Notes under the pieces: model-generated
Databases searched by the model: none
Seen by the model: the letters and a program-made list of their open reading frames with translations, nothing else
Told to the model about the DNA's origin: nothing
From: Archivesica marissinica
Lineage: Eukaryota; Mollusca; Bivalvia; Venerida; Vesicomyidae
NCBI GenBank assembly: GCA_014843695.1
Contig: CM026402.1
Span: 16,060,903-16,124,902, forward strand
Length of the DNA stretch: 64,000 bases
Direction of reading: 5' to 3'
In this document: positions 21,491 through 64,000 of the stretch, in pieces
Layout: each line of letters starts with the position of its first letter
How positions within the stretch are numbered: the stretch's first letter is position 1
Made by a program: the position numbers and the translations under genes

Positions 21491-21529
21491 CTTTGTTTTA
21501 GTGTGTTTGTCACTGTGGAGTTGTGGATA

Positions 21530-22621: not shown

Positions 22622-22805
22622 AATCTCCGAGGTTATAAAACTTTTTTGAGTTCGATCTCAAGTTCTGTGCTCAACTCCTGTCTCAAACTCAGAAACGTAG
22701 GTTATAAAACTTCTGAGTTTGAGTTTGAACTCAGGTTGAGTTTGAGATTGAGAAAAACTCGAGATTAGCTTTGAGCAAACTCAATAACCAAACTCAAGTC
22801 TCAAA

Positions 22806-26349: not shown

Positions 26350-26444
26350 TGGTGCTGCAATGAGAGACCACCTCGTGAATACATTTTTTAGTTGAGATGG
26401 GTATTACTTTTTGGCTGCCACATGACAAAACTCATAAATCAAGA

Positions 26445-26715
26445 ACTGCTAATGATAGACAGATAAACCTGCTAATGATAGACAGATAAACCTGGTAATG
26501 ATAGACAGATAAACCTGGTAATGATAGACAGATAAACCTGGTAATGATAGACAGATAAACCTGCTAATGATAGACAGATAAACCTGGTAATGATAGACAG
26601 ATAAACCTGCTAATGATAGACAGATACACCTGCTAATGATAGACAGATAAACCTGGTAATGATAGACAGATAAACCTGCTAATGATAGACAGATAAACCT
26701 GGTAATGATAGAAAG
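26445..26715 (+). repeat. 23-bp minisatellite downstream of the nuclease
   Basis: Twelve copies of AATGATAGACAGATAAACCT plus GGT or GCT. The mirrored site in the left copy (18831-18862) has a single unit, so the array arose in the right copy after the two separated. Confidence 0.93.
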
Positions 26716-26816
26716 ATAGACTTGGTTACAAACTGTTGCTAATATTGTGAAAAACCAATAAGTTTCAAATGACTAATGTTAATAATGCTAGTATCTAAAG
26801 TTCAAAATGTATAGGT

Positions 26817-30645: not shown

Positions 30646-30723
30646 TGTAGTATTTATTGTGCGCGCAGACGATGCGTGACGCTTCCGGTTATGGCTTTTT
30701 AAGCCTCCATACGAAAGAGTTAA

Positions 30724-40340: not shown

Positions 40341-40554
40341 TCACATATGTGTGTTTGTAGCAGAACTGCTCATTTCAAACCCGCGATTGATATGTGACTC
40401 CTTTTGTTCGCTGACAATCGGGTTTGATTTATCTTCAATTGGTTTATCTCCTCTGGTGTCTGAATCAATAGGTAGAGAATCGGCACAGAATTTGTCTATG
40501 AGCATAATTCCCGTCAGTTGGGTGATCAAGTTGACAACACTTCGTGAACGGTCT
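40341..40554 (-). CDS. SLC1-like gene, exon 10 (last)
   Basis: Encodes TM8 from DRSRSVVNL and an acidic/serine-rich cytoplasmic tail ending in TNTHM, then TGA. The substrate-binding arginine of TM8 and the following asparagine are kept, while the terminal Asp of the motif is Gln. Acceptor TTTTCAG at 40555-40561. Confidence 0.88.
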
Positions 40555-43500
40555 CTGAAAAGTTCCATTGATAAGATTGGTTTATTCCCTTAGCTCCTGA
40601 ATAACGATAACAATGAATGTGGATGAAGTAATGTGAAGGTGTAATAGAACTTTGATGTTTCAGCTGCATGACATCCACATACATTTGCTGTACATTTACA
40701 TACATAGCACTCAAACTCCAACCCAAAACATACCCTATTACACCCATTTTGCTCTAAATTTGGCTAGAATGAACATTTTAATGTCAATTAGGATTTCGGA
40801 CCCCTTGCAAAAATGATCAGTACTATCTAGAAGATGTCCGCTCATAAGCAAAAGAAACACTTGTTTGTACAGTCAAAACTGTCTTAACCTGTACTTTACC
40901 CACATGGAGAACCAAGGCATACATAATCACATCAGCCGCTACGACACAAGCCAATACGATTTTTGAAGTCACATAAGAGATTAAATAATCAAAAAGTTAT
41001 GACTATTTTATTTTGAAGAACACACTTTGCTACTTTCTAGTTTTGAATGTTATTATAATTCAGCATTATTGATATATCCGGATTCTCCAGCATTCGGTAG
41101 TCTCATGATTGTCTACTGTGACATGTTGGTGTAGCAACCGTGCAGTGGCTTTTGGTATTAAGTAATCCTTTGATTTATTTTTACAGATAGTTCACTTTCA
41201 CAGACACAAACTGGAAACATGTCATTGTGTACATACAATTAGTAACCCAAAGACAAACTTACATAAAGAATTCCAGTGCAAACAGCATTGCTGCGGCCTC
41301 GCCAGGTATGTTGAGTGCAGTGAGCAGGATAAGAACAGTAACGAGACTGGCACCCACTACTGACGGTATCGCCAATGCCGAGATCCATGCCAATAATCTG
41401 AAGTGGACATTCATCTCCACAATAACATAACTGTACCAGGAATGGTACTCGTCCTCAACTGAGTCCATATTGCACAGTTTACAAATGCGATGGCTCTCTA
41501 TGCCTATTTACCGACCCGTTTCAATGTCCAGATGATGCACATAGAGCCTAAAATCTTGTTAGTTCGCTCCTTAACCCTTACTGTGCTGGAAACAAGTTTA
41601 TATGTTTTGCAAACAACATAGAGCCAGATCAGACGGCACAGAACGTGGCATTTTATCAGGCTCTATGCTGTTTACTGTTAGACAAGTGGAGCTAAAACAC
41701 TTGGCTGAATAACAAACAACATAGATCCTGATCAGAAGCGGTGTTATGCGCGGCTGATCTGGATCTATGTTGTTTACACATTCCTTCAATTTATTCAGCA
41801 TTTTAAGGGTTAATGGGTCATTTACAAATGTATGTTTCACATTTAAATGACAATTTAAATTTGCTATAGGAACATAGTTTATACATTGACTTCACAGAGT
41901 CATGCCAATCTTGTATGAATTGGTATCGGATACGACGTTTAAAAATAGGTATATTATTCGTGTTATCATTAAAATTATATCTAATGTTAGTAAATCCAAG
42001 ATGATCAATGATAGATCATATTATATTAGACTAGCACTTACCACGTATGGCGCTGCATTGTTCGAAATATACATTGTTATAATAAATACTTTATTTAACG
42101 AGATAACTCAATCGAACAATTAAGTCAATCTTCTATGAGGCAACAAATTAACAATGTTAATAAGAGAATTATTATTTTTGATAATTTTAATCCAAAATAA
42201 TTAATTTTAAAAATCTTTCTTTTGCATTAATATACAGGGAGAAACCTACCAAGCTCACCTAATATAGCAATGGTGGGTGTCTGTTTACGGAGTCCAAAAA
42301 TACGCTTACAGAATTTAATGTGAAGTGTATCAATTTCCTTTAAGTTGTAGACACTCCAAACTCCAGCACCATACAATAACATGGGAGCAATCATAGTGTC
42401 GAATATATACAACTTAGTTTACGACTGCGTACTGGCCAATAATATTCATACTACAATGAAAAACACGGATACAACTTTCCATCTTGATTATTGTAAAGAG
42501 TAGCACATTAATACTTATTACATAACGAGGATGATGTCGGCCACATTGACTTCTCGACCAAGCGTCTGTATGATGAAGAAACACGAACACGTGATATACA
42601 TGACACTTCCGGCTCTTCCAATGGTTGCCGACAGTGGTGCCACCAAGCGTGATATTCGGGGATCCACGCCGTTTTTTACCTCTAAACTGTGGAAGGTTTC
42701 GGGAAGGGCAATCATGCTGAAAGGCAACCATATCCATATATGTCTACTAGAAACACTGAACCGAAGAGAAATGGAACGTTATCGTATTAATGAAAACTAT
42801 AGTTAAACGGTACGCCTAGATGTCTATAATCTCCGTGAGATCTAAAATCGAGTCTTTGTTTCGTGCAATGATGTTTGAAGTCTCTACAAATTGTGAGTGC
42901 GTGCGTTTCTCTCAAAAGATCTATTACTTTTTTTAATATAAATTATTGAAACTTCAGGCGCTTGTATTTACTTACGTACTAGACGTCACTAAGACGATCA
43001 TTATGGATGGTATGATGGTGCCGAAGAATTTGAAGGGGTTTGTTCTCCGTACGACGACGAACACAATAGGAAGTATAATGAATCCCCAGAGAATCGTAGA
43101 AACTTCAACTACAAGAACGTACAGACCAAGCTTACGGAACGTTTTTTCAACATCCGTCGTCGTCACGATAGCATTGGCGATAAGGCTGGCAACTCCTACT
43201 GGCGTCGACCTAAAATACTAGTACACTTAAACATCACTCACCAATCATAATGTATCTTAAATCTATAATATAAATCATAATATTAATATCACAAATGTGG
43301 TCCGCATAAAGCTTAGGACACAATGCGCCTAGTCCTGCTTCGTGACAAGATCTACAGGGGCATATATAGGTCGCTTCCGGTGTACAGGTAAGTAGCTTTA
43401 ACGCATGTAGAATGCAGGATTACTGAGGATAACGATCGGACTCATGACCTAGCGGTTAAGGTCGCTGAGTTCACTTATCCCTTATATCTGCAGGTCGAAT

Positions 43501-46500
43501 CCCATTAGTCGTCTTGGTATTATGTGATATAAGCTACCCGGCCTACCTGAAACAATGTATGGGAAACATGGGGTTTTCAACCGCATATAGTTGGATTGTC
43601 TGATCTCAATATAATCAAACTTCTACAACAAATAGGCAATGCTAGATTAATAATTATGTCTACAGCCGTGTTACAATAGATACGCCACTGCCGGGGTTCG
43701 ATCACACGCCACCTCGATCATTAGGCAAGTCTCATTACTAAGCTAAATTTATGGTAGATCTGTCCGTACTTAGCTGGACGGTAAATATGTCCATAATGTC
43801 GGACCGATTGTTAGGCCCGTAATACCAGTCGCATGGTCGGATATAACTGGCTGTACACATACTAGATCTAATAAATATGCATGTTGGTTCCTAATGCAAG
43901 TAAGGTATGTTGTAAGTTTTGGCCCATGGAAAAATATATAAATATAATCGTACCATATAAGGACTCTAAGGATTTTTAATATTATATCTGTTGCAGAACG
44001 GAAGAAGAAAAGGAACGGCTCGCCGTCTTCCTTCATTGCTGCAGCGCCAATGCCAAAAACTACGCTCACAACGATCAATCCTAAAACACATGAAACTGTA
44101 CAACGATCCGCCATAGTACAACAGTAACGAACTAGAGGTAATCACGTGGGGGGGGGGGGAAGGCACAAGATAAGAGCAAATGTTTCAGTTCACATGACCT
44201 TGAATTGACATTGAAATGTCAACCTCAAGGTCGTTGGGTATGACTTATATGGAAGAAAATTTCCCAATAGTTGTTCCTTTGGAACTATATGTATATCTTG
44301 TTTCGTTTTCCGGATATACGCACACTATATATAGTATTACTTCCTCCTGGACCAACCCTCTATATATCCACAAGTATTGAATTAGATAGATTTTCAACTA
44401 TATTTATCTACCTATGCAAACGATGGACTGAATAGTTTTACAGCCTATCAACACACTGGTATCATTTAAGGAAGCTATACCGAGCATAATGGCTAATTTT
44501 ACACCGTTTGAAGGGTCGGCAGCTGCTTTAAAGCTAGCGAAAACAAGCTGAGATGAGTTACCTAATGCAACCTGGTACATCCATTTCTTTATGTTGACGA
44601 GCTTTTGTTTTGTCATTAATGGTGTGTGCAATTAGTTATGGTAAGGTGAACCCTTAAATCTTCAAAGGCAGAGTAGCTAGACAGTATTAGTATTATAATA
44701 CAAAAGTCAAATAGTCAAAAACAACAACCCCGTTTTTTAAAGTTTATTTAACATTGCTATCGGCTGCGCATTTGAGCGACGGACAATTTATCTAACACAA
44801 GTTACAAAACCTTTCCTTGGCAGGCTCCAGCGGTTAACTAGTACTTCTGTACCAAACTGCCTACTTTTTCAAATACATGTACAGAGACACGGTTTGAGCG
44901 GGGCTCGAACCCGTGACCATCAGTGACGATATTCCTGATACAGTGGTATGACAACTCGACCACGGAGGTGAACTAACGTTATGTTTGGCTAGCACATTGG
45001 TAGAGCCGGCAGAACCCACGTATGTTGTATTTAATACACGCACAGTTAATTTACGTTATATTTACATAGAACATTGGTAGAGCCGGCAGAACCCACGTGT
45101 GTTGTATTTAATACACGCACAGTTAATTTACGTTATATTTACTAGAACAATGGTAGAGCCGGCAGAACCCACGTATGTTGTATTTAATACACGCACAGTT
45201 AATTTACGTTATATTTACATAGAACATTGGTAGAGCCGGCAGAACCCACGTGTGTTGTATTTAATACACGCACAGTTAATTTACGTTATATTTACTAGAA
45301 CAATGGTAGAGCCGGCAGAACCCACGTATGTTGTATTTAATACACGCACAGTTAATTTACGTTATATTTACCTAGAATATTGGTAGTTCATACAAATTTA
45401 TTTTAGCTCAATTGCGAAACAAGTTCTTTCAACTTATATTAATCATTCACGAAACCTCATTCCTGATGGAATCCATCGCCACGAGGGAGAGAGAAGAGGC
45501 AATGTGGAATTTAAATGCCTTGCATAAGGGCACACTCGTAACGGCTCCAGCGGGGCTCGAACTCCAGACCTTTCGCACCTGAAGCGAACGCGCATCCACT
45601 GGGCCATCACGACTTCCATAAAGAATATTGGTAGAGCCGGCAGAACCCACGTATGTTGTATTTAATACACGCACAGTTTATGTACGTTATATTTACTAGA
45701 ACATTGGTAGAGCCGGCAGAACCCACGTATGTTGTATTTAATACACGCACAGTTTATGTACGTTATATTTACCTAGAACATTGGTAGAGCTGGCAGAACC
45801 CACGTATGTTGTATTTAATACACGCACAGTTTATGTACGTTATATTTACCTAGAACATTGGTAGAGCCGGCAGAACCCACGTATGTTGTATTTAATACAC
45901 GCACAGTTTATGTACGTTATATTTACCTAGAACATTGGTAGAGCCGGCAGAACCCACGTATTTCTTCTCCAGTACTTGCACAGATTTAATGACATCGTGG
46001 GTGCCGTTGTTGGTAACGATTTCCACAGTCTTGAAATCATACTTTGTCTGTGCCTAGACGACAAATTATGAACGTTTATACAAACACATAGCAGCTTCCA
46101 TTGAAGTGTTCATACAAATAGTAGGGGCCTCCGTGAGTGACCTAGTGGTTACGGTCGTTGAAATCAAATATGTTGCCCCTCATCGCTGTTAGTTGAAATC
46201 CCAATGTCAACTTCTCGAATGTGAGGAAGCTATCCAGCTGGCTTGCGGATTGTCGGGGGTTCTACCCGGGTGCCCGTCAATGCCCTGAAATACTGCCCAG
46301 AATCCGGGGTCGTCCTCTAACAATATCCCAAAATGAAAGAAAGACAAATGACAACACGTCATGTATACAATAAGCTATCTTCACGCAGTAACGTTGCGCC
46401 ACAGCAAGCAAACTAACCACCACCTTTAGAAAGGCTACCCATTGGCGAAGAATCGATTTGAATGTTGATGGGACCAATGTTCGGTGAACCCCACCTGTTG

Positions 46501-49500
46501 TTTTTAAAGGTTATTGGTTTTATTGGTTATTTCATCTCAGGCATGTTATACTTTTCAAAGTTTATTGGTTATTTCATCTCGTGCGTGTTGGACTTTTCAA
46601 AGTGTACTGGTTACTTCATCTCGTGCATGTTAGACTTTTCAAAGTATATTGGTTACTTCATATCGTGCATGTTAGACTCTTCAAAGTATATTGGTTACTT
46701 CATCTCGTGCATGTTAGACTCTTCAAAGTTTATTGGTTATTTCATATCGTGCATGTTATACTTTTCAAAGTTTACTGGTTATTTCATCTCGTGCATGTTA
46801 GACTCTTCAAAGTATATTGGTTACTTCATCTCGTGCATGTTAGACTCTTCAAAGTTTATTGGTTATTTCAACTCGTGCATGTTAGACTCTTCAAAGTTTA
46901 TTGGTTATTTCATATCGTGCATGTTAGACTTTTCAATGTTTATTGGTTATTTCATCTAATTCATGTTAGACTTTTCAAAGTTTATTGGTTATTTCATCTC
47001 GTGCATGTTAGACTTTTCAAAGTTTATTGGATATTTCATCTAATTCATGTTAGACTTTTCAAAGTTTATTGGTTATTTCACCTCGTGCATGTTAGACTTT
47101 TCAAAGTTTATTGGTTATTTCATCTAATTCATGTTAGACTTTTCAAAGTTTATTGGTTATTTCATCTCAGGTATGTTAGACTTTTCAAAGTTTGTTGGTT
47201 ATTTCACCTCGTGCATGTTAGACTTTTCAAAGTTTATTGGTTATTTCATCTCGTGCATGTTAGACTTTTCAAAGTTTATTGGTTATTTCATCTCGTGCAT
47301 GTTATACTTTTCAAAGTTTATTGTTATTTCATCTCGTGCATGTTAGACTTTTCAAAGTTTATTGGTTATTTCATCTAATGCATGTTAGACTGTTCAAAGT
47401 TTATTGGTTATTTCATCTCGTGCATGTTAGACTTTTCAAAGTTTATTGTTATTTCATCTAATGCATGTTGGACTTTTCAAAGTTTATTGGTTATTTCATC
47501 TAATGCATGTTAGACTGTTCAAAGTATATTGGTTATTTCATCTCGTGCATGTTGGACTGTTCAAAGTTTATTGGTTATTTCATATCGTGCATGTTAGACT
47601 CTTCAAAGTTTATTGGTTATTTCACCTCGTGCATGTTAGACTTTTCAAAGTTTATTGGTTATTTCATATCGTGCATGTTAGACTCTTCAAAGTTTATTGG
47701 TTATTTCATCTTGTGCATGTTGGACTTTTCAAAGTTTATTGGTTATTTCATCTCGTGCATGTTAGACTTTTCAAAGTTTATTGATTATTTTATCTCGTGC
47801 ATGTTAGACTTTTCAAAGTTTACTGGTTATTTCATCTCGTGCACGTTGGACTTTTCAAAGTTTATTGATTATTTTATCTCGTGCATGTTAGACTTTTCAA
47901 AGTTTACTGGTTATTTCATCTCGTGCATGTTAGACTTTTCAAAGTTTATTGGTTACTTCATATCGTGCATGTTAGACTTTTCAAAGTTTATTGGTTATTT
48001 CATCTCGTGCATGTTGGACTTTTCAAAGTTTATTGGTTACTTCATCTCGTGCATGTTAGACTTTTCAAAGTTTATTGGTTACTTCATCTCGTGCATGTTA
48101 GACCACTGTGACGATCTGGGTTGTTAACTATTTTATTTTTATCATTAGTAATTGATGCTGACCAGAAAGCCGGCGACTATATTTGATACTTTGTAGGAAA
48201 TGTCACATGGTAGGAGCATCATTAAAATTAGCAAATATAAAAAATGCTTTAAAATGTAAACGGACGAATACGTTAAAAGCGAATGTCATTGGCTGCTGAG
48301 AACAAATTTGTGTACGTGAAAAATTAAAATAACATGTTATAAATGATTATGATTATTACTTCGTGAACTTTCTTCTGAACTAAGCAATCCACTATGTTCA
48401 CTTTTCAACTACTCAATTCACATTTCTATAGTACCTGATATATGGAAAGATGCAAATGTTACTCCACTATTCAAATCTGGTGATCGTTCTCTAGTTAACA
48501 ATTATCGTCCAATATCGCTCATAAGTAATTTAAATAAAGTAATTGAAAGAATTGTATTTAAACACACTTTCAACTTTCTACATGCCAATAACATCCTTAC
48601 TCCTTTACAGTCTGGATTCGTCCCGGGTGACTCCACCATTAATCAATTAACTTATATGCATAATGTTTTCGCACAGGCAATTGACTCCGGTAAAGAAGTC
48701 AGAGCGATCTTCTGTGACATCAGTAAGGCCTTTGATCGTGTCTGGCACAAAGGGTTATTATTTAAACTTAACTCAATCGGTATTTCTGGACCTTTGCTAT
48801 CCTGGTTCTCGTCTTATGTGCGTAGCAGAAAACAACGTGTGGTTCTCCCCGGTTGTAAATCTTCGGATAATTTTCTCACTACTGGTGTGCCACAAGGATC
48901 AATTCTCGGACCTCTTCTTTTCCTTATTTATATTAACGACATTGTTCGAGATATTCAAGCTAATATTAGACTTTATGCTGATGACACCAGTCTATACATT
49001 GTTGTTGAAAATCCAATTACGGCTTCTGCTATCCTTAACTCTGATCTCCGCACAATAGATTCATGGGCTTCAAAATGGCTTGTAAAGTTCAATCCTACTA
49101 AAACTGAATCCTTACTGATATCACGTAAACACCAAAGAAATAATTATCACCCTCCACTTCAAATGCAAACTCAACATATAACAGAAGTCCGGCATCATAA
49201 GCACCTAGGTGTGCATCTGTCACATGATCTTCGCTGGTCCACACATATAGAATACATGAAAACTAAAGTATGGAAAGGGATAAATATAATGAAAAAATTA
49301 AAATTCCAACTCGATAGAAGGTCATTAGAGATAATATATCTAACATTTATACGACCGATTCTCGAGTATGGTGATATTCTATTTGACAACTGTACCCAAT
49401 ATGAAAAAATAGATTTGGAACAAATTCAACAAGAGGCTGCCAGAATTGTTACCGGGACTACGAAACTGGTATCAATTGCTAAACTTATGACAGAAGTTGG

Positions 49501-52500: not shown

Positions 52501-55500
52501 CGTTTGTTCTGGGCCAGTGAGACCCTGGTCCGAGGTTGTAAAACATTTCCCAGATCTCCGGCTCAGTCTCAAGTTTCGGATTGATTGAACCGAAAGCAAA
52601 TTTCACACTCTTTCTAATCAAATAACTCTCAAGCTCGAGTTTGAGATCTGCGAAATGTTTTATAACAGTAACTATGTTGCTTGCTATTTGGACAAGTGTT
52701 TGAGCTCCACTATCTGAATAGCAAACAGCAAAGAGCCTGATCAGACGGCATGTTCGGTGCAGTCTGATCTGACTTTATATGTTTGCAAAAGAGATGTTAG
52801 TCGTTATTGGCCGGTCAATTTAGGGTTAACCATAGCACACCTATGGGTTCAGTATAATTGGAACAAGAATCGAATTCGCTACCTCCTAGTTACCTTAGAA
52901 GGTCAGCAAAGATGTCTTCTGTTTCCATGACGTCACCATTTAATCTGGAAGTATCCACACCCGTGTCAATACCCTCACCTGTAGAAAAGACACCCGAAAG
53001 TCAAATACTCGAACACAGCCGTTGCTAAATAATACAATTTCATGATTGGTATAAAGTAAAAACATGTACTAAGTATAGCGGTTTGTCATTGTAAAGTTAA
53101 TGACTTGTTTACATTCTAGTACCACATACATGTATACATTTGGAGGTTCCCCAAGCGATCCTGGGACGACATGGATACATTTGGAAGTTCCCCAAGCGGT
53201 CTGGGACGACATGGATACATTTGGAAGTTCACCAAGCGGTCCTGGGACGACATGTATATACATTTGGAAGTTCCCCAAGCGGTCCTGGGACGACATGGAT
53301 ACATTTGGAAGTTCCCCAAGCGGTCCTGGGACGACATGTATACATTTGGAAGTTCCCCAAGCGGTCCTGGGACGACATGTATACATTTGGAAGTTCCCCA
53401 AGCGGTCCTGGGACGACATGGATACATTTGGTAGTTCCCCAAGCGATCCTGGGACGACATGGATATATTTGGAAGTTCCCCAAGCGATCCTGGACGACAT
53501 GGACACATTTGGAAGTTCCCCAAGCGATCCTGGGACGACATGTATACATTTGGAAGTTCCCCAAGCGGTCCTGGGACGACATGGATACATTTGGAAGTTC
53601 CCCAAGCGATCCTGGGACGACATGTATATACATTTGGAAGTTCCCCAAGCGATCCTGGGACGACATGGATACATTTGGAAGTTCCCCAAGCGATCCTGGG
53701 ACGACATGGATACATTTGGAAGTTCCCCAAGCGATCCTGGGACGACATGTATACATTTGGAAGTTCCCCAAGCGATCCTGGGACGACATGGATACATTTG
53801 GAAGTTCCCCAAGCGGTCCTGGGACGACATGGATACATTTGGAAGTTCCAATAATAATAATAATAATAAAGACTTTATTTAAGGAGAGAACTCATTTGAA
53901 CAACTAAGTATATCTACCAGGAGGCACTCAACAAATTAAAACATCAGATAGCACACTGAATCATACAATCAATGACCAGTGAGACTTTCATGGGAAATAA
54001 GATATAAGCTGCAGGAACTAATATTTATATACATGTATTATAATAATAGCTGTCCTGTGACGACATGTATACATTTGGAAGATCCCTCAAGCGGTCCCTA
54101 TGACGAATTGCATACATTTGGAAGGTCCCATAGCGGTTGTGTGACGACTTGCATACATTTAGGAGTTTCCATAGCAGTCGTGTGACGACTTGCATCTACT
54201 TAGGAGTTTCCATAGCAGTCGTGTGACGACTTGCATATATTTAGGAGTTTCCATACCTGTCGTGTGACAACTTGCATATATTTAGGAGTTTCCATAGCGG
54301 TCGTGTAACGACTTGCATACACTTGGAAGGTCTCCATAGCAGTTGTGTGACGATTTGCATATATTTAGGAGTTTCCATAGCAGTCGTGTAACGACTTGCA
54401 TATATTTAGGAGTTTCCATAGCGGTCGTGTGACGACTTGTATATATTAGGGAGTTCCCATATAGTTATGGGACGACATGTATACATTGAGAGGTGTCTCA
54501 TGCGGTCTTGGGATGACATGTATACATTATGGAGTGCCCCATCTATGCTGGCCTGGTGCGACAGTTATACATTGTGGAGTGTCCCACACATGCTGTCCTG
54601 GGACGACAGTTATACATTATGGAGTGTCACATATATGCTGTCCTGGGGCGACAGTTATACATTGTGGAGTGTCACATATATGCTGTCCTGGGGCGACAGT
54701 TATACATTGTGGAGTGTCACACCCATGCTGTCCTGGGACGACAGTTATACATTATGGAGTGTCACACCCATGCTGTCCTGGGATGACAATTATACATTGT
54801 GGAGTGTCACATCCATGCGGTCCTGGGATGACATTTATACATTGTGGAGTATCACACCCATGCTGTCCTGGGATGACATTTATACATGGTGGAGTGTCCC
54901 ACCCATGCTGTCCTGGGATGACAGTTATACATTGTGGAGTGTCCCACCCATGCTGTCCTGGGACGACAGTTATACATTGTGGAGTGTCACATCCATGCTG
55001 TCCTGGGACGACAGTTATACATTGTGGAGAGTGTCCCACCCATGCTGTCCTGGGATGACAGTTATACATTGTGGAGTGTCCCACCCATGCTGTCCTGGGA
55101 CGACAGTTATACATTGTGGAGTGTCACATCCATGCTGTCCTGGGACGACAGTTATACATTGTGGAGAGTGTCACACCCATGCTGTCCTGGGACGACAGTT
55201 ATACATTGTGGAATATCACATCCATGCTGTCCTGGGACGACATTTATACATTGTGGAGTGTACCACCCATGCTGTCCTGGGATGACAGTTATATATTGTG
55301 GAGTATAACATCCATGCTGTCCTGGGACGACAGTTATACATTGTGGAGAGTGTCCCACCCATGCTGTCCTGGGATGACAGTTATACATTGTGGAGTGTCC
55401 CACCCATGCTGTCCTGGGATGACAGTATTACATTGTGGAGTGTCACATCCATGCTGTCCTGGGACGACAGTTATACATTGTGGAGAGTGTCACACCCATG

Positions 55501-58500
55501 CTGTCCTGGGACGACAGTTATACATTGTGGAGTGTCACATCCATGCTGTCCTGGGACGACAGTTATACATTGTGGAGAGTGTCACACCCATGCTGTCCTG
55601 GGACGACAGTTATACATTGTGGAATATCACATCCATGCTGTCCTGGGACGACATTTATACATTGTGGAGTGTACCACCCATGCTGTCCTGGGATGACAGT
55701 TATATATTGTGGAGTATAACATCCATGCTGTCCTGGGACGACAGTTATACATTGTGGAGTGTCCCACACATGCTGTCCTGGGACGACATTTATACATTGT
55801 GGAGTGTCCCACCCATGCTATCCTGGGATGACATTTATACATTGTGGAGAGTGTCACACCCATGCTGTCCTGGGATGACAGTTATACATTGTGGAGAGTG
55901 TCACACCCATGCTATCCTGGGATGACATTTATACATTGTGGAGAGTGTCACATCCATGCTGTCCTGGGATGACAGTTATACATTGTGGAGAGTGTCACAC
56001 CCATGCTGTCCTGGGATGACATTTATACATTGTGGAGAGTGTCACATCCATGCTGTCCTGGGATGACATTTATTCATTGTGGAGTGTACCACCCATGCTG
56101 TCCTGGGACGACATTTATACAGTGTGGAGTGTCCCACCCATGTTGTCCTGGGACGACAGTTATACATTGTGGAGTGTCACATACATGCTGTCCTGGGACG
56201 ACATTTATACATGGTGGAGTGTCACACACATGCTGTCCTGGGACGACAGTTATCCATTGTGGAGTGTCCCACCCATGCTGTCCTGGGATGACAGTTATAC
56301 ATTGTGGAGAGTGTCACACCCATGCTGTCCTGGGATGACAGTTATCCATTGCGGAGTGTCCCACCCATGCTGTCCTGGGACGACAGTTATACATTGTGCA
56401 GTGTCACACCCATGCTGTCCTGGGATGACATTTATACATTGTGGAGTGTCACATCCATGCTGTCCTGGGGCGACAGTTTTCCATTATGGAATGTCAAATC
56501 CATGCTGTTCTGGGAGGACATTTATACATTGTGGAGTGTCACATCCATGCTGTACTGGGGCGACAGTTGTCCATTATGGAATGTCACATCCATGCTGTCC
56601 TGGGGCGACAGTTATACATTGTGGAGTGTCCCACCCATGCTGTCCTGGGACGACAGTTATACATTGTGGAGTGTCACACCCATGGTGTCCTGGGATGACA
56701 GTTATCCATTGTGGAGTGTCCCATCCATGCTGTCCTGGGACGACAGTTATCCATTGTGGAGTATCACATCCTTGCGGTCCTGGGACGACATTTATACATT
56801 GTTGGGTGTCACATCCATGCTGTCCTGGGATAACATTTATACATTATGGAGTGTCACATCCATGCTGTCCTGGGATAACATTTATACATTATGGAGTGTC
56901 ACATCCATGCTGTCCTGGGACGACAGTTATCCATTGTGAAGTGTCACATCCTTGCGGTCCTGGGACACTGTACATTCATGGACGACAGTTACACATTGTG
57001 GAGAGTGTCACATCCTTGCGGTCCTGGGACACTGTACATTCATGGACGACAGTTACACATTGTGGAGAGTGTCACATCATTGCGGTCCTGGGACACTGTA
57101 CATTCATGGACGACAGTTACACATTGTGGAGAGTGTCACATCCGTGCGGTCCTGGGACACTGTACATTGTGGAGTGTCACATCCGTGCGGTCCTGGGACA
57201 CTGTACATTGTGGAGAGTGTCACGTCCGTGCGGTCCTGGGACACTGTACATTCATGGACGACAGTTACACATTGTGGAGAGTGTCACATCCGTGCGGTCT
57301 TGGGAGGACAGTTATGCATTGTGGAGAGTGCCACATCCTTGCGGTCCTGGGACACTGTACATTCATGGACGACAGTTACACATTGTGGAGAGTGTCACAT
57401 CCGTGCGGTCCTGGGACACTGTACATTCATGGACGACAGTTACACATTGTGGAGAGTGTCACATCCGTGCGGTCCTGGGACACTGTACATTGTGGAGAGT
57501 GTCACATCCGTGCGGTCCTGGGACACTGTACATTGTGGAGAGTGTCACATCCGTGCGGTCCTGGGACACTGTACATTCATGGACGACAGTTATACATTGT
57601 GGAGTGTCACATCCTTGCTGTCCTGGGGCGACAGTTATACATTATGGAGTGTCCCACCATGCTGTACTGGGATGACATTTATACATTGTGGAGTGTCACA
57701 TCCATGCTGTCCTGGGACGACAGTTATACATTATTGAATGTCACATCCATGCTGTCCTGGGACGACAGTTGTCCATTATGGAATGTCACATCCATGCTGT
57801 CCTGGGACGACAGTTATACATTATGGAGTGTCACATCCATGCTGTCCTGGGATGACATTTATACATTGTGGAGTGTCACACCCATGCTGTCCTGGGATGA
57901 CAGTTATCCATTGTGGAGTGTCACAACCATGCTGGCCTGGGACGACAGTTATACATTGTGGAGAGTGTCACATCATTGCGGTCCTGGGACGACAGTTATA
58001 CATTGTGGAGTGTCACCCGTGTCAATACCCTCACCTGTAGAAAAGACACCCGTAAGTCAAATACTCGAACACATTGTGGAGAGTGTCACATCCGTGCGGT
58101 CCTGGGACACTGTACATCCGTGCGGTCCTGGGACACTGTACATCCGTGCGGTCCTGGGACACTGTACACCCGTGCGGTCCTGGGACACTGTACATTGTGG
58201 AGAGTGTCACATCCGTGCGGTCCTGGGACACTACATTGTGGAGTGTCACATCCGTGCGGTCCTGGGACACTGTACATTGTGGAGAGTGTCACATCCGTGC
58301 GGTCCTGGGACACTGTACATTGTGGAGAGTGTCACATCCGTGCGGTCCTGGGACACTGTACATTGTGGAGAGTGTCACATCCGTGCAGTCCTGGGACACT
58401 GTACATTGTGGAGTGTCACATCCGTGCGGTCCTGGGACACTGTACATTGTGGAGAGTGTCACATCCGTGCGGTCCTTGGACACTGTACATTGTGGAGAGT

Positions 58501-61500
58501 GTCACATCCGTGCGGTCCTGGGACACTGTACATTGTGGAGAGTGTCACATCCGTGCGGTCCTGGGACACTGTACATTGTGGAGAGTGTCACATCCGTGCG
58601 GTCCTGGGACACTGTACATTGTGGAGAGTGTCCCACCCATGCTGTCCTGGGACACTGTACATTGTGGAGAGTGTCACATCCTTGCGGTCCTGGGACACTG
58701 TACATTGTGGAGAGTGTCACATCCGTGCGGTCCTGGGACACTGTACATTGTGGAGAGTGTCACATCCGTGCGGTCCTGGGACACTGTACATTGTGGAGAG
58801 TATCCCACCCATGCTGTCCTGGGACACTGTACATTGTGGAGAGTGTCATATCCGTGCGGTCCTGGGACACTGTACATTGTGGAGAGTGTCACATCCGTGC
58901 TGTCCTGGGACACTGTACATTCATGGACGACAGTTATGCATTGTGGAGAGTGTCACATCCGTGCGGTCCTGGGACACTGTACATCCGTGCGGTCCTGGGA
59001 CACTGTACATCCGTGCGGTCCTGGGACACTGTTCATTGTGGAGAGTGTCACATCCGTGCGGTCCTGGGACACTGTACATCCGTGCGGTCCTGGGACACTG
59101 TACACCCGTGCGGTCCTGGGACACTGTACATTGTGGAGAGTGTCACATCCGTGCGGTCCTGGGACACTGTACATCCGTGCGGTCCTGGGACACTGTACAC
59201 CCGTGCGGTCCTGGGACACTGTACATTGTGGAGAGTGTCACATCCGTGCGGTCCTGGGACACTACATTGTGGAGTGTCACATCCGTGCGGTCCTGGGACA
59301 CTGTACATTGTGGAGAGTGTCACATCCGTGCGGTCCTGGGACACTGTACATTGTGGAGAGTGTCACATCCGTGCAGTCCTGGGACACTGTACATTGTGGA
59401 GTGTCACATCCGTGCGGTCCTGGGACACTGTACATTGTGGAGAGTGTCACATCCGTGCGGTCCTTGGACACTGTACATTGTGGAGAGTGTCACATCCGTG
59501 CGGTCCTGGGACACTGTACATTGTGGAGAGTGTCACATCCGTGCGGTCCTGGGACACTGTACATTGTGGAGAGTGTCACATCCGTGCGGTCCTGGGACAC
59601 TGTACATTGTGGAGAGTGTCCCACCCATGCTGTCCTGGGACACTGTACATTGTGGAGAGTGTCACATCCTTGCGGTCCTGGGACACTGTACATTGTGGAG
59701 AGTGTCACATCCGTGCGGTCCTGGGACACTGTACATTGTGGAGAGTGTCACATCCGTGCGGTCCTGGGACACTGTACATTGTGGAGAGTATCCCACCCAT
59801 GCTGTCCTGGGACACTGTACATTGTGGAGAGTGTCATATCCGTGCGGTCCTGGGACACTGTACATTGTGGAGAGTGTCACATCCGTGCTGTCCTGGGACA
59901 CTGTACATTCATGGACGACAGTTATGCATTGTGGAGAGTGTCACATCCGTGCGGTCCTGGGACACTGTACATCCGTGCGGTCCTGGGACACTGTACATCC
60001 GTGCGGTCCTGGGACACTGTTCATTGTGGAGAGTGTCACATCCGTGCGGTCCTGGGACACTGTACATTGTGGAGAGTGTCACATCCGTGCGGTCCTGGGA
60101 CACTGTACATTGTGGAGAGTGTCACATCCGTGCGGTCCTGGGACACTGTACATTGTGGAGAGTGTCACATCCGTGCGGTCCTGGGACACTGTACATTGTG
60201 GAGAGTGTCTCACCCATGCTGTCCTGGGACACTGTACATTGTGGAGAGTGTCACATCCTTGCGGTCCTGGGACACTGTACATTGTGGAGAGTGTCACATC
60301 CGTGCGGTCCTGGGACACTGTACATTCATGGGCGTTTTCACAAATAAAACCATTGTCACTTGAACTGCTTTCCATTGAAAGGTGTTTATTTTCCAATTGA
60401 TTATTCAGATTGATGTTGTACCCGAATATGCTAAATCCAATTTGCATAGATTGCACTTAGCAGTTGTCTTCTCAGAGCGATTGAAGTCTTTCCAAACGTG
60501 TGACTGAGCGGGTGACATTTTTGAGGAAACTAATTAATTTTATTATTTAAGTTTATTTAACGTCGCTATCGGTTGCCCATTTGAACGACGGACAGTTTAC
60601 CTAACAACACCTTTCCTAGGCAGGCTCCAGCGGTTAACCAGTACTTGGTGCACAAACCTCCGTAAGAAGCTGTCAACTTCTTCATATATATGAGACACGG
60701 CCTGAGCGTGGCTCGAACCCGTAACCATCATAAAAACCGTACTTTAAATAGTACTTTTTGATAATATTGAGCAGTTAATTAAAATTTTAAGATACATGGG
60801 AGTGTATGTTGTTGCAAAGTGTCTGTACTATTTCATTCTCTGTCTAAACAGTTTTGATGTTTTGACATCATAATCAAACACTACCTACCTTAACACCTAC
60901 TGTAATTATCCGATTACACGGCAGAGTGTCAATTAACACATGCCATGGATAGGAAAACAACATGGTTTATTCGTACATCCTGGGGCGATTTCTTTTATAT
61001 TGGAAGGATTTATAATGGTTTCAAATGAAAACAAAATATCGGATTTATGACAGTTATTTCATTTTTGCAAATATAATATTTTTTACCGAATATTCGAATA
61101 CTGGAATAGTATTCGGATATTCGGACGCTCGAGCGAATATTCGAATATTCGCTAACACCCATGTTTATTTCCATGAAAGTGTGATATGAAACCAGAATAT
61201 TCAATCTTATAGTATGCAGCATAGCTTGCACTAGTCTGCCTAGCTGTAAAACTGAAAAATAACGAGACGTATGCTTACAACCAGGCTTAATCAGTTCTAG
61301 ATCGGGAGAATCCTTCTCCTATACACATATAAGATCTATCCAGAAGTCTTTTATATTCATTTTGTTTAATTTTTAATTTATGTTCAATCTGTTATTTCGA
61401 AAATGCTTTGATAGTAAATATCAGAATAACAATGCTTAATATAAAACGTCCAATTTTCCAAGTCTAAATATTTGGACTAGGTTAACACCTGCCCGGAATA

Positions 61501-63293
61501 GTTTACCTGGATTAATAATGTAGCATAACGCAGCTGCGATTATGGCGGCGATGAAGTGTGTAATCATAATGTAAGCCAGAGCATATGCACTCACTTTACC
61601 GTTGGTACGAGGGTCCATTTCCGCAGTGCCTGAAAAGAAGAATTGCAACCATATGGAGACAACATAAAATATCAATGAACAGATTGCCAAGTACACAACG
61701 ATATGTATGAACAGATTGCCAAGTACACATAACTATGTATGAACATATTGCAAAGTATATATAAATATGTATGAACATATTGCCAAGTACACATACATAT
61801 GTATGAACAACAGATTGCCAAGTACACATCCATATGTATGAACAACAGATTGCCAAGTACACATCCATATGTATGAACAGATTGCCAAGTACACATACCT
61901 ATGTATGAACATATTGCCACGTACACATCCATATGTATGAACAGATTGCCAAGTACATATAAATATGTATGAACAGATTGCCAAGTACACATACATATGT
62001 ATGAACAGATTGCCAAGTACACATACATATGTATGAACAGATTGCCACGTACATATAATAAATGTAAATAACGTGATTGGAATAAATGTAGCAAATTTCA
62101 TTTCATAAATTGACATCAATAATATGCATCCATAATGATTATTATACGGAATAGGTTTGCTCGATAACCTCAACTCCTTGCTTCAGCCACTACACCATGC
62201 TCTCCATGTTCCCTAATTCTCTGTCTAGTTTCGGGTGCGCGATCCAATGGTGGCGTATAAGGTGTGTGCCCCTAATACATAGTTCCCATGGCCTGTGAAA
62301 ACACTGTGAAAATGGCCAAACACTGATAAGATATTATCTTGGACGCCATTTTGTTTGGCAAGTTTTATAAATGGCAATTTCAGGATTTTCCTAGTAATTC
62401 TATAATTGCATAACATAATATTTTGTTTGTTAATATAAAATTTGGCATCATTTTAAAGGTATTGAAATGCACTTTTTAAATATTAATTTATTTTTTAACA
62501 ATTATGTATGTATTTTAATCCTTGCAGTTATTTTCGAAACTCTATGTTCATAGTTGAACTATTAATATACAGGTACATTATTATTTATTCGTTAGTGATA
62601 CGCCAGGAGTCCCATACGTACGATTCATAGTTACTGCTTTATACACGTATCACTATTTCTCAATAGCGCTGTACTAGTATTCACACTTTAGGGAACTACT
62701 GTATTCGAACACCTCCCCAGAGATGAATGAGAGCTTACGAAATTATGTGTCAGTTACAGAATACTCTTTAAGGAGCATACGCGGGTCTTTTTAATTGGTT
62801 TCCTCTGTTTTAATCATAGCTTCCTTTGCACAACATGCTATCAATTTTCATTCCTTTTCTCATCTTATAATTATTAAATTATTAAATATCGACAGGTATT
62901 CTACAGCATACCCAATGGATAAGTTACCGTAACAGTTTGTTATCACTTTAATTAACATGACTTTGATAACATCACATTTATCATACCGCATAATCTGGTT
63001 AGGGATCAACAGCGAACACAAAGGATTCCAACTATAAGGAACTATATGCATTTCGGGATAAATCGGATTTCATCTACCAAGTGAGGTAATAGAGAGATCA
63101 TTGTGCACAGTTTGGTTTCAAAAATATAAAATAATCGACGAAAGCTTTCACTAAAACCAATTTGCGTTATAAAGGTTTTCTAGCATTCTAGAAGAGTGTT
63201 TATGTAAAACATACTAACCAGCGATCACGCTACATACTACAAGCGGAACAATCATCATTTTTATCATCCGGATGTACAGCTCCCCAGGTATAC
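40341..63293 (-). CDS. SLC1-family (excitatory amino acid transporter-like) protein, 3' ten exons
   Basis: SLC1 proteins are trimeric plasma-membrane carriers that move glutamate, aspartate or neutral amino acids with sodium. Ten exons (63219-63293, 61507-61629, 52894-52978, 52009-52051, 45927-46053, 43954-44080, 42976-43209, 42522-42716, 41263-41397, 40341-40554) join with GT-AG borders and continuous phase into 451 residues plus stop; the N-terminal 70 or so residues lie beyond the right edge. Order matches the family: TM2 (IPGELYIRMIKMMIVPLVV), TM3, an extracellular loop, a helix at NVLGLIVVSVVFGIG, TM6, HP1 (TSSTMIALPETF), TM7, HP2, TM8. The NMDGT motif of TM7 reads GRAGS, and the TM8 motif DxxRTxxNxxGD reads DRSRSVVNLITQ, so acidic sodium ligands are missing. 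Intact splicing argues for a real, divergent gene rather than a pseudogene. Introns carry about 15 kb of satellites. Confidence 0.9.
41263..41397 (-). CDS. SLC1-like gene, exon 9
   Basis: Encodes hairpin HP2, with ALAIPSVVGASLVTVLILLT matching the family's ASIPSAGLVTM-type segment, and the start of TM8 (ALEFF in place of the usual VDWF). 135 nt, entered and left in phase 2. Confidence 0.88.
41571..41813. mobile_element. piggyBac-type MITE in SLC1-like gene
   Basis: Perfect TTAA at 41571-41574 and 41810-41813; ends CCCTTACTGTGCTGG and, inverted, CCCTTAAAATGCTGA. Internal inverted phrases around CAACATAGAGCC form two hairpins. Best preserved of three copies in the window. Confidence 0.88.
42060..42412 (-). 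mobile_element. Non-LTR retrotransposon 3' fragment
   Basis: A 61-codon minus-strand frame (42412-42227) with FDTMIAPMLLYGAGVWSVYN resembles the C-terminal region of LINE reverse transcriptases, which have a conserved P-x-L-x-YG-x-x-xW segment after the palm. Downstream AT-rich DNA with ACTTTATTTAAC on the plus strand resembles the LINE-tail fragment at 53843. It lies in the intron between exons 8 and 9. Confidence 0.68.
42522..42716 (-). CDS. SLC1-like gene, exon 8
   Basis: Encodes the end of HP1 (MIALPETFHSLE), the NGVDPRISRLV segment and TM7 (PLSATIGRAGSVMYITC), where the family's NMDGT is replaced by GRAGS and the following Glu by Ile. 195 nt. Confidence 0.9.
42976..43209 (-). CDS. SLC1-like gene, exon 7
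   Basis: Encodes the STPVGVASLIANAI segment, TM6 (LGLYVLVVEVSTILWGFIIL) and the first half of HP1 (NPFKFFGTIIPSIMIVLVTSS). 234 nt, strong donor AC|GTAAGT. Confidence 0.9.
43435..43565 (+). mobile_element. tRNA-derived SINE fragment
   Basis: Box A-like TGACCTAGCGGTTAAGGTCG and box B-like CAGGTCGAATCCC are followed by a short body. Same broad family as 46128 and the Harbinger-borne copies. Confidence 0.65.
43954..44080 (-). CDS. SLC1-like gene, exon 6
   Basis: Encodes GLIVVSVVFGIGAAAMKEDG and a helix ending ILRVLIW, matching the family's LGL-FGI-G-M-E pattern. 127 nt; the terminal TG joins the first G of exon 7 to make Trp. Confidence 0.9.
44740..44975 (-). mobile_element. tRNA-derived SINE
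   Basis: Minus-strand head CCTCCGTGGTCGAGTTG (box A) and CGGGTTCGAGCCCC (box B, near 44905); the opposite end at 44740 has AGTTTATTTAACATTGCTAT. Same family as 32150 and 60543. Confidence 0.8.
44990..45926 (-). repeat. 77-bp repeats derived from the exon 5 donor junction
   Basis: About nine copies of a 76-78-bp unit. On the minus strand each contains the last about 29 coding bases of exon 5 (encoding YVGSAGSTNVL), the donor, and about 45 bases of intron that starts GTAAATATAACG. Copies near 45147 and 45300 have lost a G at the donor and copies near 45071 and 45224 have another change, giving a 153-bp dimer pattern on the left; copies near 45780 and 45856 keep the intact CTAG|GTAAAT. A SINE splits the array at 45387-45621. 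Confidence 0.92.
45387..45621 (-). mobile_element. SINE with 13-bp target duplication
   Basis: Full SINE on the minus strand, flanked by perfect AGAATATTGGTAG at 45374-45386 and 45622-45634. Body as in 31383 and 37257; head with TGGCCCAGTGGATGCGCG and box B-like GAGTTCGAGCCCC. The clean duplication indicates a recent insertion, later than the satellite it splits. Confidence 0.9.
45927..46053 (-). CDS. SLC1-like gene, exon 5
   Basis: 127 nt, 42 codons plus one base, encoding part of the extracellular loop (AQTKYDFKTVEIVTNNGTHD, with an NGT glycosylation sequon) and ending in STNVL just before the next helix. Donor CTAG|GTAAAT at 45926-45921. Its 3' end is the source of the neighbouring repeat array. 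Confidence 0.88.
46128..46330 (+). mobile_element. tRNA-derived SINE
   Basis: Box A-like GAGTGACCTAGTGGTTACGG, a degenerate box B, then AGGAAGCTATCCAGCTGGCT and GGGTTCTACCCGGGTGCCCG. Confidence 0.75.
46505..48103 (+). repeat. 42-bp satellite in intron 4
   Basis: About 38 copies of TGTTAGACTTTTCAAAGTTT then ATTGGTTATTTCATCTCGTGCA. Since 42 is a multiple of 3, 14-residue periodic open frames appear in three frames; these are artefacts. Variants (TAATTCATG, TAATGCATG, TATCGTG) are interspersed. Confidence 0.95.
48358..50680 (+). mobile_element. 5'-truncated non-LTR retrotransposon
   Basis: Coding similarity starts abruptly at about 48365 inside a reverse transcriptase domain and continues through a stop at 50135-50137 and about 540 bp of AT-rich 3' untranslated sequence ending near AATAAATATG at 50645-50654. 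Antisense to, and inside intron 4 of, the SLC1-like gene. 5' truncation is typical of target-primed insertion. Confidence 0.85.
48656..50137 (+). CDS. Reverse transcriptase, Jockey/CR1-like LINE, partial
   Basis: An uninterrupted frame that really begins upstream at about 48372 (the first ATG at 48656 is internal). Motifs in order: NYRPISLIS, LQSGFVPGDSTINQL, FCDISKAFDRVWH (first catalytic Asp), GVPQGSILGPLLFLIYIND, LYADDTSLY (catalytic ADD), FNPTKTESLLIS and HLGVHLSHDLRWSTHI. After the polymerase, a helical region ends with a Cys/His cluster (CECGAIENSHHYFLVC), as in many Jockey-group LINEs. The N-terminal endonuclease is absent, so this copy cannot be autonomous. The open frame suggests a fairly young insertion. 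Confidence 0.9.
   Translation: MHNVFAQAIDSGKEVRAIFCDISKAFDRVWHKGLLFKLNSIGISGPLLSWFSSYVRSRKQRVVLPGCKSSDNFLTTGVPQGSILGPLLFLIYINDIVRDIQANIRLYADDTSLYIVVENPITASAILNSDLRTIDSWASKWLVKFNPTKTESLLISRKHQRNNYHPPLQMQTQHITEVRHHKHLGVHLSHDLRWSTHIEYMKTKVWKGINIMKKLKFQLDRRSLEIIYLTFIRPILEYGDILFDNCTQYEKIDLEQIQQEAARIVTGTTKLVSIAKLMTEVGWESLETRRFKHKLILFYKMKNNLTPAYLSNLVPSSVGNVHRYPLRNSQNIQTIFTRTDFYYKSFLPSVIRDFNALPVLTQHAGTVTAFKRLLNNDLPKVPGYFYTGDRKLQILHTRLRTHCSSLCSDLFDKNIINSPYCECGAIENSHHYFLVCSQYTHLRTEMLNSISQVCSPTMDVILQGNPTLTYESNAALFSVIRNYIRDTKRFYFS
50681..50950. other. Intron spacer, nothing recognised
   Basis: AT-rich sequence between the LINE end and the 25-bp array. Confidence 0.5.
50955..52008 (-). repeat. 25-bp repeats derived from the exon 4 donor junction
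   Basis: About 42 copies of GATGATTCCGAGAATTACTG plus TACCT. On the minus strand each unit reads ATCAGGTACAGTAATTCTCG, aligning base for base with the real exon 4 donor region (AACAGGTAGAGTATTTCTTA), which forms the last unit of the array. Most copies thus present a strong-looking CAG|GTACAGT. Confidence 0.92.
52009..52051 (-). CDS. SLC1-like gene, exon 4 (43-nt microexon)
   Basis: Encodes NIVPENIIASCFQQ, matching the NLFPENLVQACFQQ-type signature of SLC1 proteins. Acceptor TTACAG|G, donor CAG|GTAGAG. The phase (1 base + 14 codons) joins exon 3 to exon 5 exactly. Confidence 0.88.
52529..52666. mobile_element. Harbinger-type MITE
   Basis: TCCGAGGTTGTAAAACATTT and, inverted, GTTATAAAACATTTCGCAGA flank a short non-coding core with CTCAAGCTCGAGTTTGAGAT, as in the Harbinger ends here. 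Terminal bases are eroded. Confidence 0.72.
52690..52829. mobile_element. piggyBac-type MITE, left-truncated
   Basis: Shares TGAGCTCCACTATCTGAATA and GCAAAGAGCCTGATCAGACG with the copy at 33785; the right end AGGG|TTAA is at 52822-52829. Confidence 0.75.
52894..52978 (-). CDS. SLC1-like gene, exon 3
   Basis: 85 nt encoding EGIDTGVDTSRLNGDVMETE then DIFADLL, the loop leading to the family's FPENL segment. Acceptor TTTTCTACAG|GT, donor AG|GTAACT. About 60 bp across its acceptor is copied at 58014-58074. Confidence 0.85.
53135..53848 (+). repeat. 41-bp satellite
   Basis: About 17 copies of GATCCTGGGACGACATGGAT then ACATTTGGAAGTTCCCCAAGC. The motif CCTGGGACGAC links it to the arrays to its right. 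Confidence 0.95.
53843..54048 (-). mobile_element. Probable LINE 3' end with (AAT)n tract
   Basis: Seven AAT repeats are followed by AAGACTTTATTTAAGGAGAG and CCAGGAGGCACTCAACAAAT, resembling the DNA at 42080-42160 beside the LINE fragment. Read on the minus strand this is a LINE tail ending in (ATT)n. It separates two satellite blocks. Confidence 0.6.
54055..54480 (+). repeat. 41-bp satellite, diverged subfamily
   Basis: About ten copies of GTCGTGTGACGACTTGCATA then TATTTAGGAGTTTCCATAGCA. More diverged than its neighbours on both sides, but clearly related through GACGAC-TGCATA-ATTTAGGAG. Confidence 0.92.
54480..56945 (+). repeat. 45/47-bp satellite
   Basis: About 54 copies of CCTGGGACGACAGTTATACA then TTGTGGAGTGTCACATCCATGCTGT; a 47-bp form has GAGAGTG. 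A 411-bp block around 55210 recurs at 55621. Unstopped frames across it are artefacts. Confidence 0.95.
56945..60330 (+). repeat. 43-bp satellite with about 1-kb duplication
   Basis: Copies of CATTGTGGAGAGTGTCACAT then CCGTGCGGTCCTGGGACACTGTA, mixed with 26-bp short forms lacking the first part and longer forms carrying TTCATGGACGACAGTTA. A block of about 1 kb is duplicated with an offset of 988 bp (for example the rare GCAGTC variant at 58385 and 59373, and the TTATGCA variant at 58933 and 59921). A frame of over 1000 codons here is a satellite artefact. Confidence 0.95.
58014..58074 (-). other. Copied exon 3 acceptor junction inside the satellite
   Basis: About 60 bp (ACCCGTGTCAATACCCTCAC, CTGTAGAAAAGACACCCG and on to ACTCGAACACA) are almost identical to 52966-53027, covering the first coding bases of exon 3, its acceptor and the adjacent intron. 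It sits as a single insert between satellite units. Confidence 0.9.
60543..60735 (-). mobile_element. tRNA-derived SINE, head-truncated
   Basis: Ends with GTTTATTTAACGTCGCTATC on the plus strand and contains CAGGCTCCAGCGGTTAACCA; box B (GGGTTCGAGCCACG on the minus strand) is present but box A is missing. Confidence 0.78.
60736..61500. other. Intron sequence, nothing recognised
   Basis: AT-rich. A cluster of GAATATTCG palindromes at 61083-61152 may be a decayed foldback element. Confidence 0.45.
61507..61629 (-). CDS. SLC1-like gene, exon 2
   Basis: 123 nt encoding GTAEMDPRTNGKVSAYALAY and TM3 (IMITHFIAAIIAAALCYIIN) ending in PG, which matches the family's LDPKTSGRLG... and IHPG landmarks. 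Acceptor TTTTCAG|GC, donor CCAG|GTAAAC. Confidence 0.9.
61675..62060 (+). repeat. 32-bp minisatellite in intron 1
   Basis: About 12 copies of ACAGATTGCCAAGTACACAT then ACATATGTATGA. Each unit carries the perfect palindrome CATACATATGTATG or a close variant. Confidence 0.93.
62061..63218. other. Intron sequence, nothing recognised
   Basis: AT-rich, no supported feature. Confidence 0.5.
63219..63293 (-). CDS. SLC1-like gene, exon 1 of those visible
   Basis: 75 nt encoding IPGELYIRMIKMMIVPLVVC then SVIAG, the TM2 signature of SLC1 proteins (FPGELLMRMLKM-type). Acceptor TTGTAG|GT. Further 5' exons must lie beyond 64000. Confidence 0.9.
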
Positions 63294-63348
63294 CTACAAC
63301 AGGTACACATTAATAAATACCATACGGATACAACATGAAACAATTGTA

Positions 63349-63552
63349 TGTTCCTTTAATGTCAAACCCCTCGCGGGGACTTAGACATGTTTTCCTGGGC
63401 AGGCTTAGCCGACCTAAGCGATTAACCAGTACTAAGCAATGTGTGTGAGGTGCCTTGCTCAATGACACTACATACGTGGCGTGACAGAGTATCGAACCCG
63501 GGACAGTTCGATTCCAAATCCGAAGCTCCACCACTGGACCACGGACGCCACA
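63349..63552 (-). mobile_element. tRNA-derived SINE
   Basis: Minus-strand head GGCGTCCGTGGTCCAGTGGT (box A), GGGTTCGATACTC (box B), then a body with CAAGGCACCTCACACACATT and CCCCGCGAGGGGTTTGACAT. Confidence 0.85.
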
Positions 63553-63608
63553 ATTAGTATATATCACACGGATACAACATGAAACAATTAGTATATATCA
63601 CACGGATG

Positions 63609-64000
63609 TGCAATTCTCTTGACATACGTACAACATATAACAATTCTCCAGGCATATCTACAACAGGTAACAATTCTCCAGGCATACCTACAACATGTAA
63701 CAATTCTCCAGGCATATCTACAACATGTAACAATTCTCCAGGCATATCTACAACATGTAACAATCCTCCAGGTATACCTACAACATGTAACAATTCTCCA
63801 GGTATACCTACAACATATAACAATTCTCCAGGCATATCTACAACATGTAACAATTCTCCAGGTATACCTACAACATGCAACAATTCTCCAGGCATACCTA
63901 CAACATGTAACAATTCTCCAGGCATACCTACAACATGTAACAATTCTCCAGGCATACCTACAACATGTAGCAATTCTCCAGGTATGCCTACAACATGTAA
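63609..64000 (-). repeat. 30-bp repeats derived from the exon 1 acceptor junction
   Basis: At least 12 copies of CAATTCTCCAGGCATACCTA plus CAACATGTAA, continuing past the right edge. On the minus strand each reads TTGTAGGTATACCTGGAGAA, aligned with the real acceptor and first codons of the exon at 63293 (TTGTAGGTATACCTGGGGAG). Each unit is a potential decoy AG. Confidence 0.92.

Follow-up and report, generated by a model that had tools for sequence, protein, structure and literature searches.

The window analyzed here is a 64,000-nucleotide stretch (C17:16060903-16124902) of the 1.54-Gb genome of the clam Archivesica marissinica, and it contains an SLC1-like gene in which several exon-intron borders have been copied into tandem arrays. 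Ten exons, designated A to J, were placed on the minus strand from 63293 down to 40341 (Table 1). They are joined in frame through GT-AG borders and encode 451 amino acids, with the first exons of the gene falling outside the window. The product is an SLC1/EAAT (glutamate transporter) protein (Pfam SDF, E=1.7e-79), and the closest named proteins are the EAAT1-like proteins of Ruditapes and Mercenaria (73-74% identity). Alignment of the predicted protein with venerid clam EAAT1-like proteins was unbroken over every junction, including those that bear arrays, indicating that the exon borders are well placed and that the protein models of the relatives contain no array copies. Judging from this protein continuity, the transcripts are probably spliced normally.

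Table 1. Exons of the SLC1-like gene, with the arrays, insert and border copy found in and around its introns (window positions).
Feature	Position	Strand	Remark
Exon A	63219..63293	-	acceptor matches 30-bp unit
Exon B	61507..61629	-	
Exon C	52894..52978	-	acceptor copied once at 58014-58073
Exon D	52009..52051	-	donor is first copy of 25-bp array
Exon E	45927..46053	-	donor is first copy of 77-bp array
Exon F	43954..44080	-	
Exon G	42976..43209	-	
Exon H	42522..42716	-	
Exon I	41263..41397	-	
Exon J	40341..40554	-	includes stop codon
77-bp array	44976..45961	-	donor E; dispersed insert at about 45384-45614
25-bp array	50970..52015	-	donor D; 41.8 copies
30-bp array, in-window part	63611..64000	-	acceptor A
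SINE-like insert between acceptor A and 30-bp array	63345..63550 (approximate limits)	-	class by eye
32-bp array, intron A-B	61675..62066	-	marginal score at acceptor A
41-bp arrays, intron B-C	53128..54461	-	border match not above shuffles
43/45-bp array, intron B-C	54499..60326	-	related to 41-bp array; border match not above shuffles
42-bp array, intron D-E	46519..48103	-	border match not above shuffles
60-bp copy of acceptor C	58014..58073	-	98%; 39 bp intron and 21 bp exon

Each array unit was compared with the 19 borders of exons A to J by its best ungapped score, with 60 shuffles of each unit as the control. Three units scored far above their shuffles (≤12-13), namely the 77-bp unit (46, at donor E), the 25-bp unit (22, at donor D) and the 30-bp unit (20, at acceptor A). 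The remaining six consensus units scored 8-13 against the same borders, and their shuffles reached up to 10-12; the 32-bp unit, which scored 13 at acceptor A against a shuffle maximum of 12, was marginal and was taken as not border-derived. The 77-, 25- and 30-bp arrays consist of donor E, donor D and acceptor A, respectively, repeated in tandem, and the scores bear out the initial annotation, which had described two donors and one acceptor of one gene as copied in arrays.

The 77-bp unit runs from the final 35 bp of exon E through the donor into 42 bp of intron, and its first copy is the end of exon E itself. Tandem Repeats Finder counted 12.6 copies over a span that takes in an insert of ~230 bp, and ~10 copies were counted by eye. 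The 25-bp array begins only 7 bases within exon D and includes the exon D donor. The 30-bp unit comprises acceptor A and about 18 bp of exon, and the array extends past the window to a total of ~83 copies. It had been claimed that each array adjoins its junction, which holds for donors E and D but not for acceptor A, where the array stops 318 bp short of the exon and the gap is occupied by an insert resembling a short interspersed element (SINE) and by degenerate copies. A second SINE-like insert, also classed by eye, lies near 44745-44975, beside the 77-bp array. Microhomology at the seeding duplication was looked for by eye in the 77-bp array and was undecidable, because rotation of the tandem unit hides the first breakpoint.

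Of the 21,595 bp of intron that separate exon A from exon J, arrays make up 10,973 (51%), so the earlier statement that they form most of the intronic DNA of the gene is only just correct. The further arrays of 42, 41, 45, 43 and 32 bp that it listed are all present, but those of 41, 43 and 45 bp look like one related family rather than separate ones, with 73-74% identity between 53.1-53.8 kb and 54.0-55.0 kb and a common motif recognized by eye. The gene therefore contains about six array families, three of which are border-derived.

Exon H matches revealed two tandem paralogs (B and C; the window gene is paralog A) on the same chromosome, further along by about 60 and 103 kb. The three paralogs share all of the border arrays, which indicates that seeding predates the gene duplications, and the copy numbers are unequal: in paralogs A, B and C there are 83, 49 and 284 copies of the 30-bp unit, 42, 47 and 24 copies of the 25-bp unit, and about 10, 3.6 and 2 copies of the 77-bp unit. 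Array lengths have thus been much altered since the duplications. For the 77-bp unit there were at least 10 genomic matches, each at one of the three paralogous loci, and the 30-bp unit had at least 231, all of which, among the matches listed, lie at these same loci. Together with the unrelatedness of the units and the fit of each to its own border, this distribution upholds the view that the three arrays were seeded independently. Paralogs B and C do not have the SINE-like insert seen at acceptor A. Acceptor C presents a different arrangement, in that its single copy lies within the 43/45-bp array at a distance of 5 kb from exon C itself; in paralog C, a 43-bp array abuts the real acceptor C at the same breakpoint as the ectopic copy, which would fit a later deletion between two acceptor copies.

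The splice dinucleotides are retained in most of the array copies, with GT kept in 107 of 112 copies of the 25-bp unit and AG in 399 of 411 copies of the 30-bp unit. They are kept no better than many other positions of the unit, and the 25-bp and 30-bp copies of the paralogs gave no sign that decoy splice sites are purged. The 30-bp arrays of paralogs A, B and C place hundreds of decoy acceptors ahead of the real acceptor.

The frequency of border arrays in other genes was determined in a sample of 164 exon sides outside the window gene, with exons chosen by Pfam match and blind to arrays. It included 43 of the 57 listed matches to CCT chaperonin, 11 of 95 to SLC6 and 1 of 9 to sugar transporters, as well as 27 exons from SLC1 genes D, E and F and loci L001-L008, which lie outside the window cluster. 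The 14 CCT matches left out include near-identical pairs and matches in long open frames that may be arrays themselves. C1893, which is closely related to gene D, was excluded before counting, as were paralogs B and C and a 72-bp array on an exon-A-like copy. Borders were set by shifting the ends of hidden Markov model or tblastn matches to the best nearby GT/AG, so some are possibly not true splice borders, and an array of at least 2.5 copies crossing the border was scored as a border array.

Arrays crossed the border at 11 of the 164 exon sides (6.7%), with units of 22-97 bp. They were found at 4 of 86 CCT, 2 of 24 SLC6/sugar transporter and 5 of 54 other SLC1 exon sides, so the pattern recurs in unrelated genes on other chromosomes. 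Both types of boundary were hit, with six donors and five acceptors in the sample and two donors and one acceptor in the window gene. Four of the border arrays belong to gene E (the donor of its exon A and the acceptors of exons B, G and I), and none was found on the eight exons of loci L001-L008. Outside the sample, the 72-bp array lies on the donor of the exon-A-like copy in locus L014, which is situated upstream of paralog B (C17:16195044-16195400). Among 52 non-crossing array-border pairs tested at distances of up to 500 bp, six rows reached P≤0.02; five of these are arrays that start within 1-16 bp of the border, and the remaining row, at 84 bp, reports one of them again, with the matches mostly on the intron side. 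One of these arrays, with a 42-bp unit at the exon F donor of gene F, probably derives from that border, with a junctional indel, and the count omits it. Border arrays are real and widespread in the sampled genes.

A mechanism that targets exon borders had been proposed in the initial annotation, and we examined it by measuring how far the first array lies from each exon side and expressing the starts per kb at risk, with only the first array per side counted. Across the 164 sides, 11 border-crossing starts in 6,322 bp of exposure gave 1.74 per kb. In the intron, the rate was 1.22 at 0-50 bp, 1.15 at 50-100 bp, 1.00 at 100-200 bp, 0.77 at 200-300 bp, 0.46 at 300-400 bp and 0.51 at 400-500 bp. 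The border rate was not significantly above that of the first 100 bp of adjoining intron (17 starts in 14,297 bp; ratio 1.46, one-sided P=0.21, small sample). In this small sample, array starts rise smoothly toward exons and show no spike at the splice site; the data do not support a mechanism aimed at the junction itself. Under a whole-intron null, exons A to J of the window gene gave 2 observed against 0.24 expected (P=0.018, or 0.066 with half of the intron discounted), a P value that is untrustworthy for a gene chosen for its arrays. An early expectation computed from collapsed flanks (6 observed, 5.3-9.3 expected) was discarded, because flanks filled by border arrays have a tiny collapsed length, which inflates the expectation; the start-rate analysis used in its place is kinder to a border excess.

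The best explanation, to which we assign a probability of roughly two in three, is that these are minisatellites of the "mirage" type described below, in which ordinary tandem duplications in neutral intron DNA spanned borders by chance and unequal exchange or slippage followed. Short tandem duplications (22-97 bp) would occasionally span an exon-intron border, and the duplicated units would then expand and contract through unequal exchange or slippage. Seeding would continue throughout array-rich introns, and whenever a seed window lay over a junction, the resulting unit would carry an exon edge and a splice site. We infer duplication and exchange as the mutational step. Such arrays would be tolerated because the copy beside the coding exon stays the real junction and further copies lie inside the intron.

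Tandem repeats over exon-intron boundaries were named mirages in the amphioxus Adh3 gene and are also described in globin, troponin C and PGBD5 genes (PMC3087553, PMC3902484). In these two reports, mirages occur at donors and acceptors, with units of 10-72 bp in Adh3 and 150-160 bp in globin genes; their copy number is unstable, between haplotypes or somatically, many copies retain AG/GT, and clusters evolve in concert apart from their edge copies. The clam arrays resemble them in spanning the exon-intron boundary at both 5' and 3' boundaries, in unit length (22-97 bp against about 10-160 bp) and in the AG/GT kept by many copies. Copy number in the clam differs strongly between paralogs. They differ in their host, a bivalve rather than a cephalochordate, in reaching up to about 284 copies, in occurring several to a gene, and in affecting about 7% of sampled exon sides. 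Splicing is reported there as undisturbed, based on Adh3 data and globin reverse transcription-PCR, and in the clam it is predicted from protein continuity. The initial annotation regarded the phenomenon as new as far as known, but mirages are the same kind of structure, so the clam presents a known structure at apparently high frequency. No report of border arrays in a bivalve was found in the open-licence literature, and the arrays described here probably extend mirage-type structures to another phylum. A related process is intron gain, for which tandem genomic duplication of AG|GT segments is described in the potato RdRp gene (PMC4974935), and for which the Rogers model invokes tandem duplication, as cited in PMC3087553. 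Both involve a short tandem duplication bearing splice-site sequence, but in the clam existing borders were copied into an existing intron, and no new intron was seen. Compared with ordinary intronic minisatellites, the clam arrays are alike in unit size, homogeneity and copy-number differences between paralogs, and unlike in that the unit takes in an exon edge and a splice site.

Several observations weigh against chance spanning followed by exchange. The 11 border arrays cross to depths of 2, 2, 4, 5, 16, 30, 35, 39, 49, 59 and 77 bases, so that four are only 2-5 bases deep and have slight exon content, the other seven being 16-77 bases deep. Signs of concerted evolution are mixed. In the 25-bp array of paralog B, identity within the paralog (0.911) exceeded that between paralogs (0.854-0.859), and the same was true of the 30-bp array of paralog C (0.888 against 0.835-0.855). 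No such excess was found in the 25-bp arrays of A (0.858) and C (0.836) or in the 30-bp array of B (0.867, against 0.872 in comparison with A). The outcome, with edge copies pooled with the others, varies by array and paralog. Start rates at the border exceeded those of the 0-500 bp intron 2.12-fold (P=0.026) and those at 200-500 bp (19 starts in 32,423 bp) 2.97-fold (P=0.006). Gene E gave 4 observed against 0.45 expected under the whole-intron null (P=0.0007, or 0.007 with the half-intron discount). Sequence common to other loci occupied 10% of the DNA within 100 bp of CCT/SLC6 exons and 24-29% beyond (a rough estimate; 361 kb compared), and such sharing would account for just part of the gradient.

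The start rates bear on the possibility that exon-proximal DNA is itself prone to seeding. In this case transcription, splicing or chromatin would raise breakage or template switching within ~100-200 bp around borders, with R-loops, nucleosome edges and GC steps as candidate causes, and border arrays would be 2-3 times commoner than arrays deep in the intron. The smooth fall in start rate from the border to about 0.5 per kb at 300-500 bp, the ratio of 2.03 between 0-100 and 200-500 bp (P=0.027), the excess in gene E and the single displaced copy of acceptor C within an array are consistent with it. However, the gradient is also expected from dilution of the deep intron by dispersed repeats plus heterogeneity between genes, to which part of it may be due, as only the first array per side counts. 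The gradient reached P=0.049 in the CCT/SLC6 set alone and P=0.214 in the other SLC1 genes. We regard this explanation as unlikely; a mild exon-proximal bias, 2-3-fold relative to deeper intron (P=0.006-0.03), may exist. The stronger proposition, that exon-proximal DNA in this clam lineage is a true minisatellite hot zone coupled to transcription or splicing, with several percent of borders seeding arrays and introns steadily rebuilt from their own borders, is more doubtful still.

Survivorship would instead combine uniform seeding with longer persistence, or lasting recognizability, of arrays on a conserved exon edge, the undrifting exon copy resupplying an intact unit by conversion. The exon-side copy is indeed nearly identical across all three paralogs and the splice dinucleotides are well preserved in the copies, but interior arrays are about equally homogeneous (percent matches of 91 for the 42-bp and 89 for the 45-bp array, compared with 85 and 92 for the 25- and 30-bp border arrays) and many other unit positions are preserved as well as GT/AG, which makes this explanation improbable. 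Misplacement of repeats at exon borders during assembly might be suspected in so repetitive a region with such different copy numbers between paralogs, but it is highly improbable given that array copies diverge by about 9-18% on average, that the arrays and junction sequence are common to three paralogs, and that unrelated genes on other chromosomes show the same pattern.

If about 7% of borders bear arrays, decoy splice sites would lie beside the real one in many introns, in numbers from tens to hundreds. Such a genome would be a natural experiment on selection of the correct site by the splicing machinery, and it would supply numerous examples that can be dated, against which models of intron growth and gain by duplication could be set.

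Other features were noted in the window. Intron D-E contains, antisense to the gene, a plus-strand open frame of 594 amino acids (48353-50137) that encodes a reverse transcriptase domain (RVT_1, E=9e-33). Outside the gene, 51-bp (162 copies) and 50-bp (50 copies) arrays occupy 1-8264 and 9265-11773, respectively. A large imperfect palindrome extends over 15255-30722, with arms at about 15.3-21.0 kb and 22.7-30.7 kb whose matching pieces are 91-98% identical, and the same 32-, 33- and 23-bp arrays, differing in length, lie in or beside both arms.
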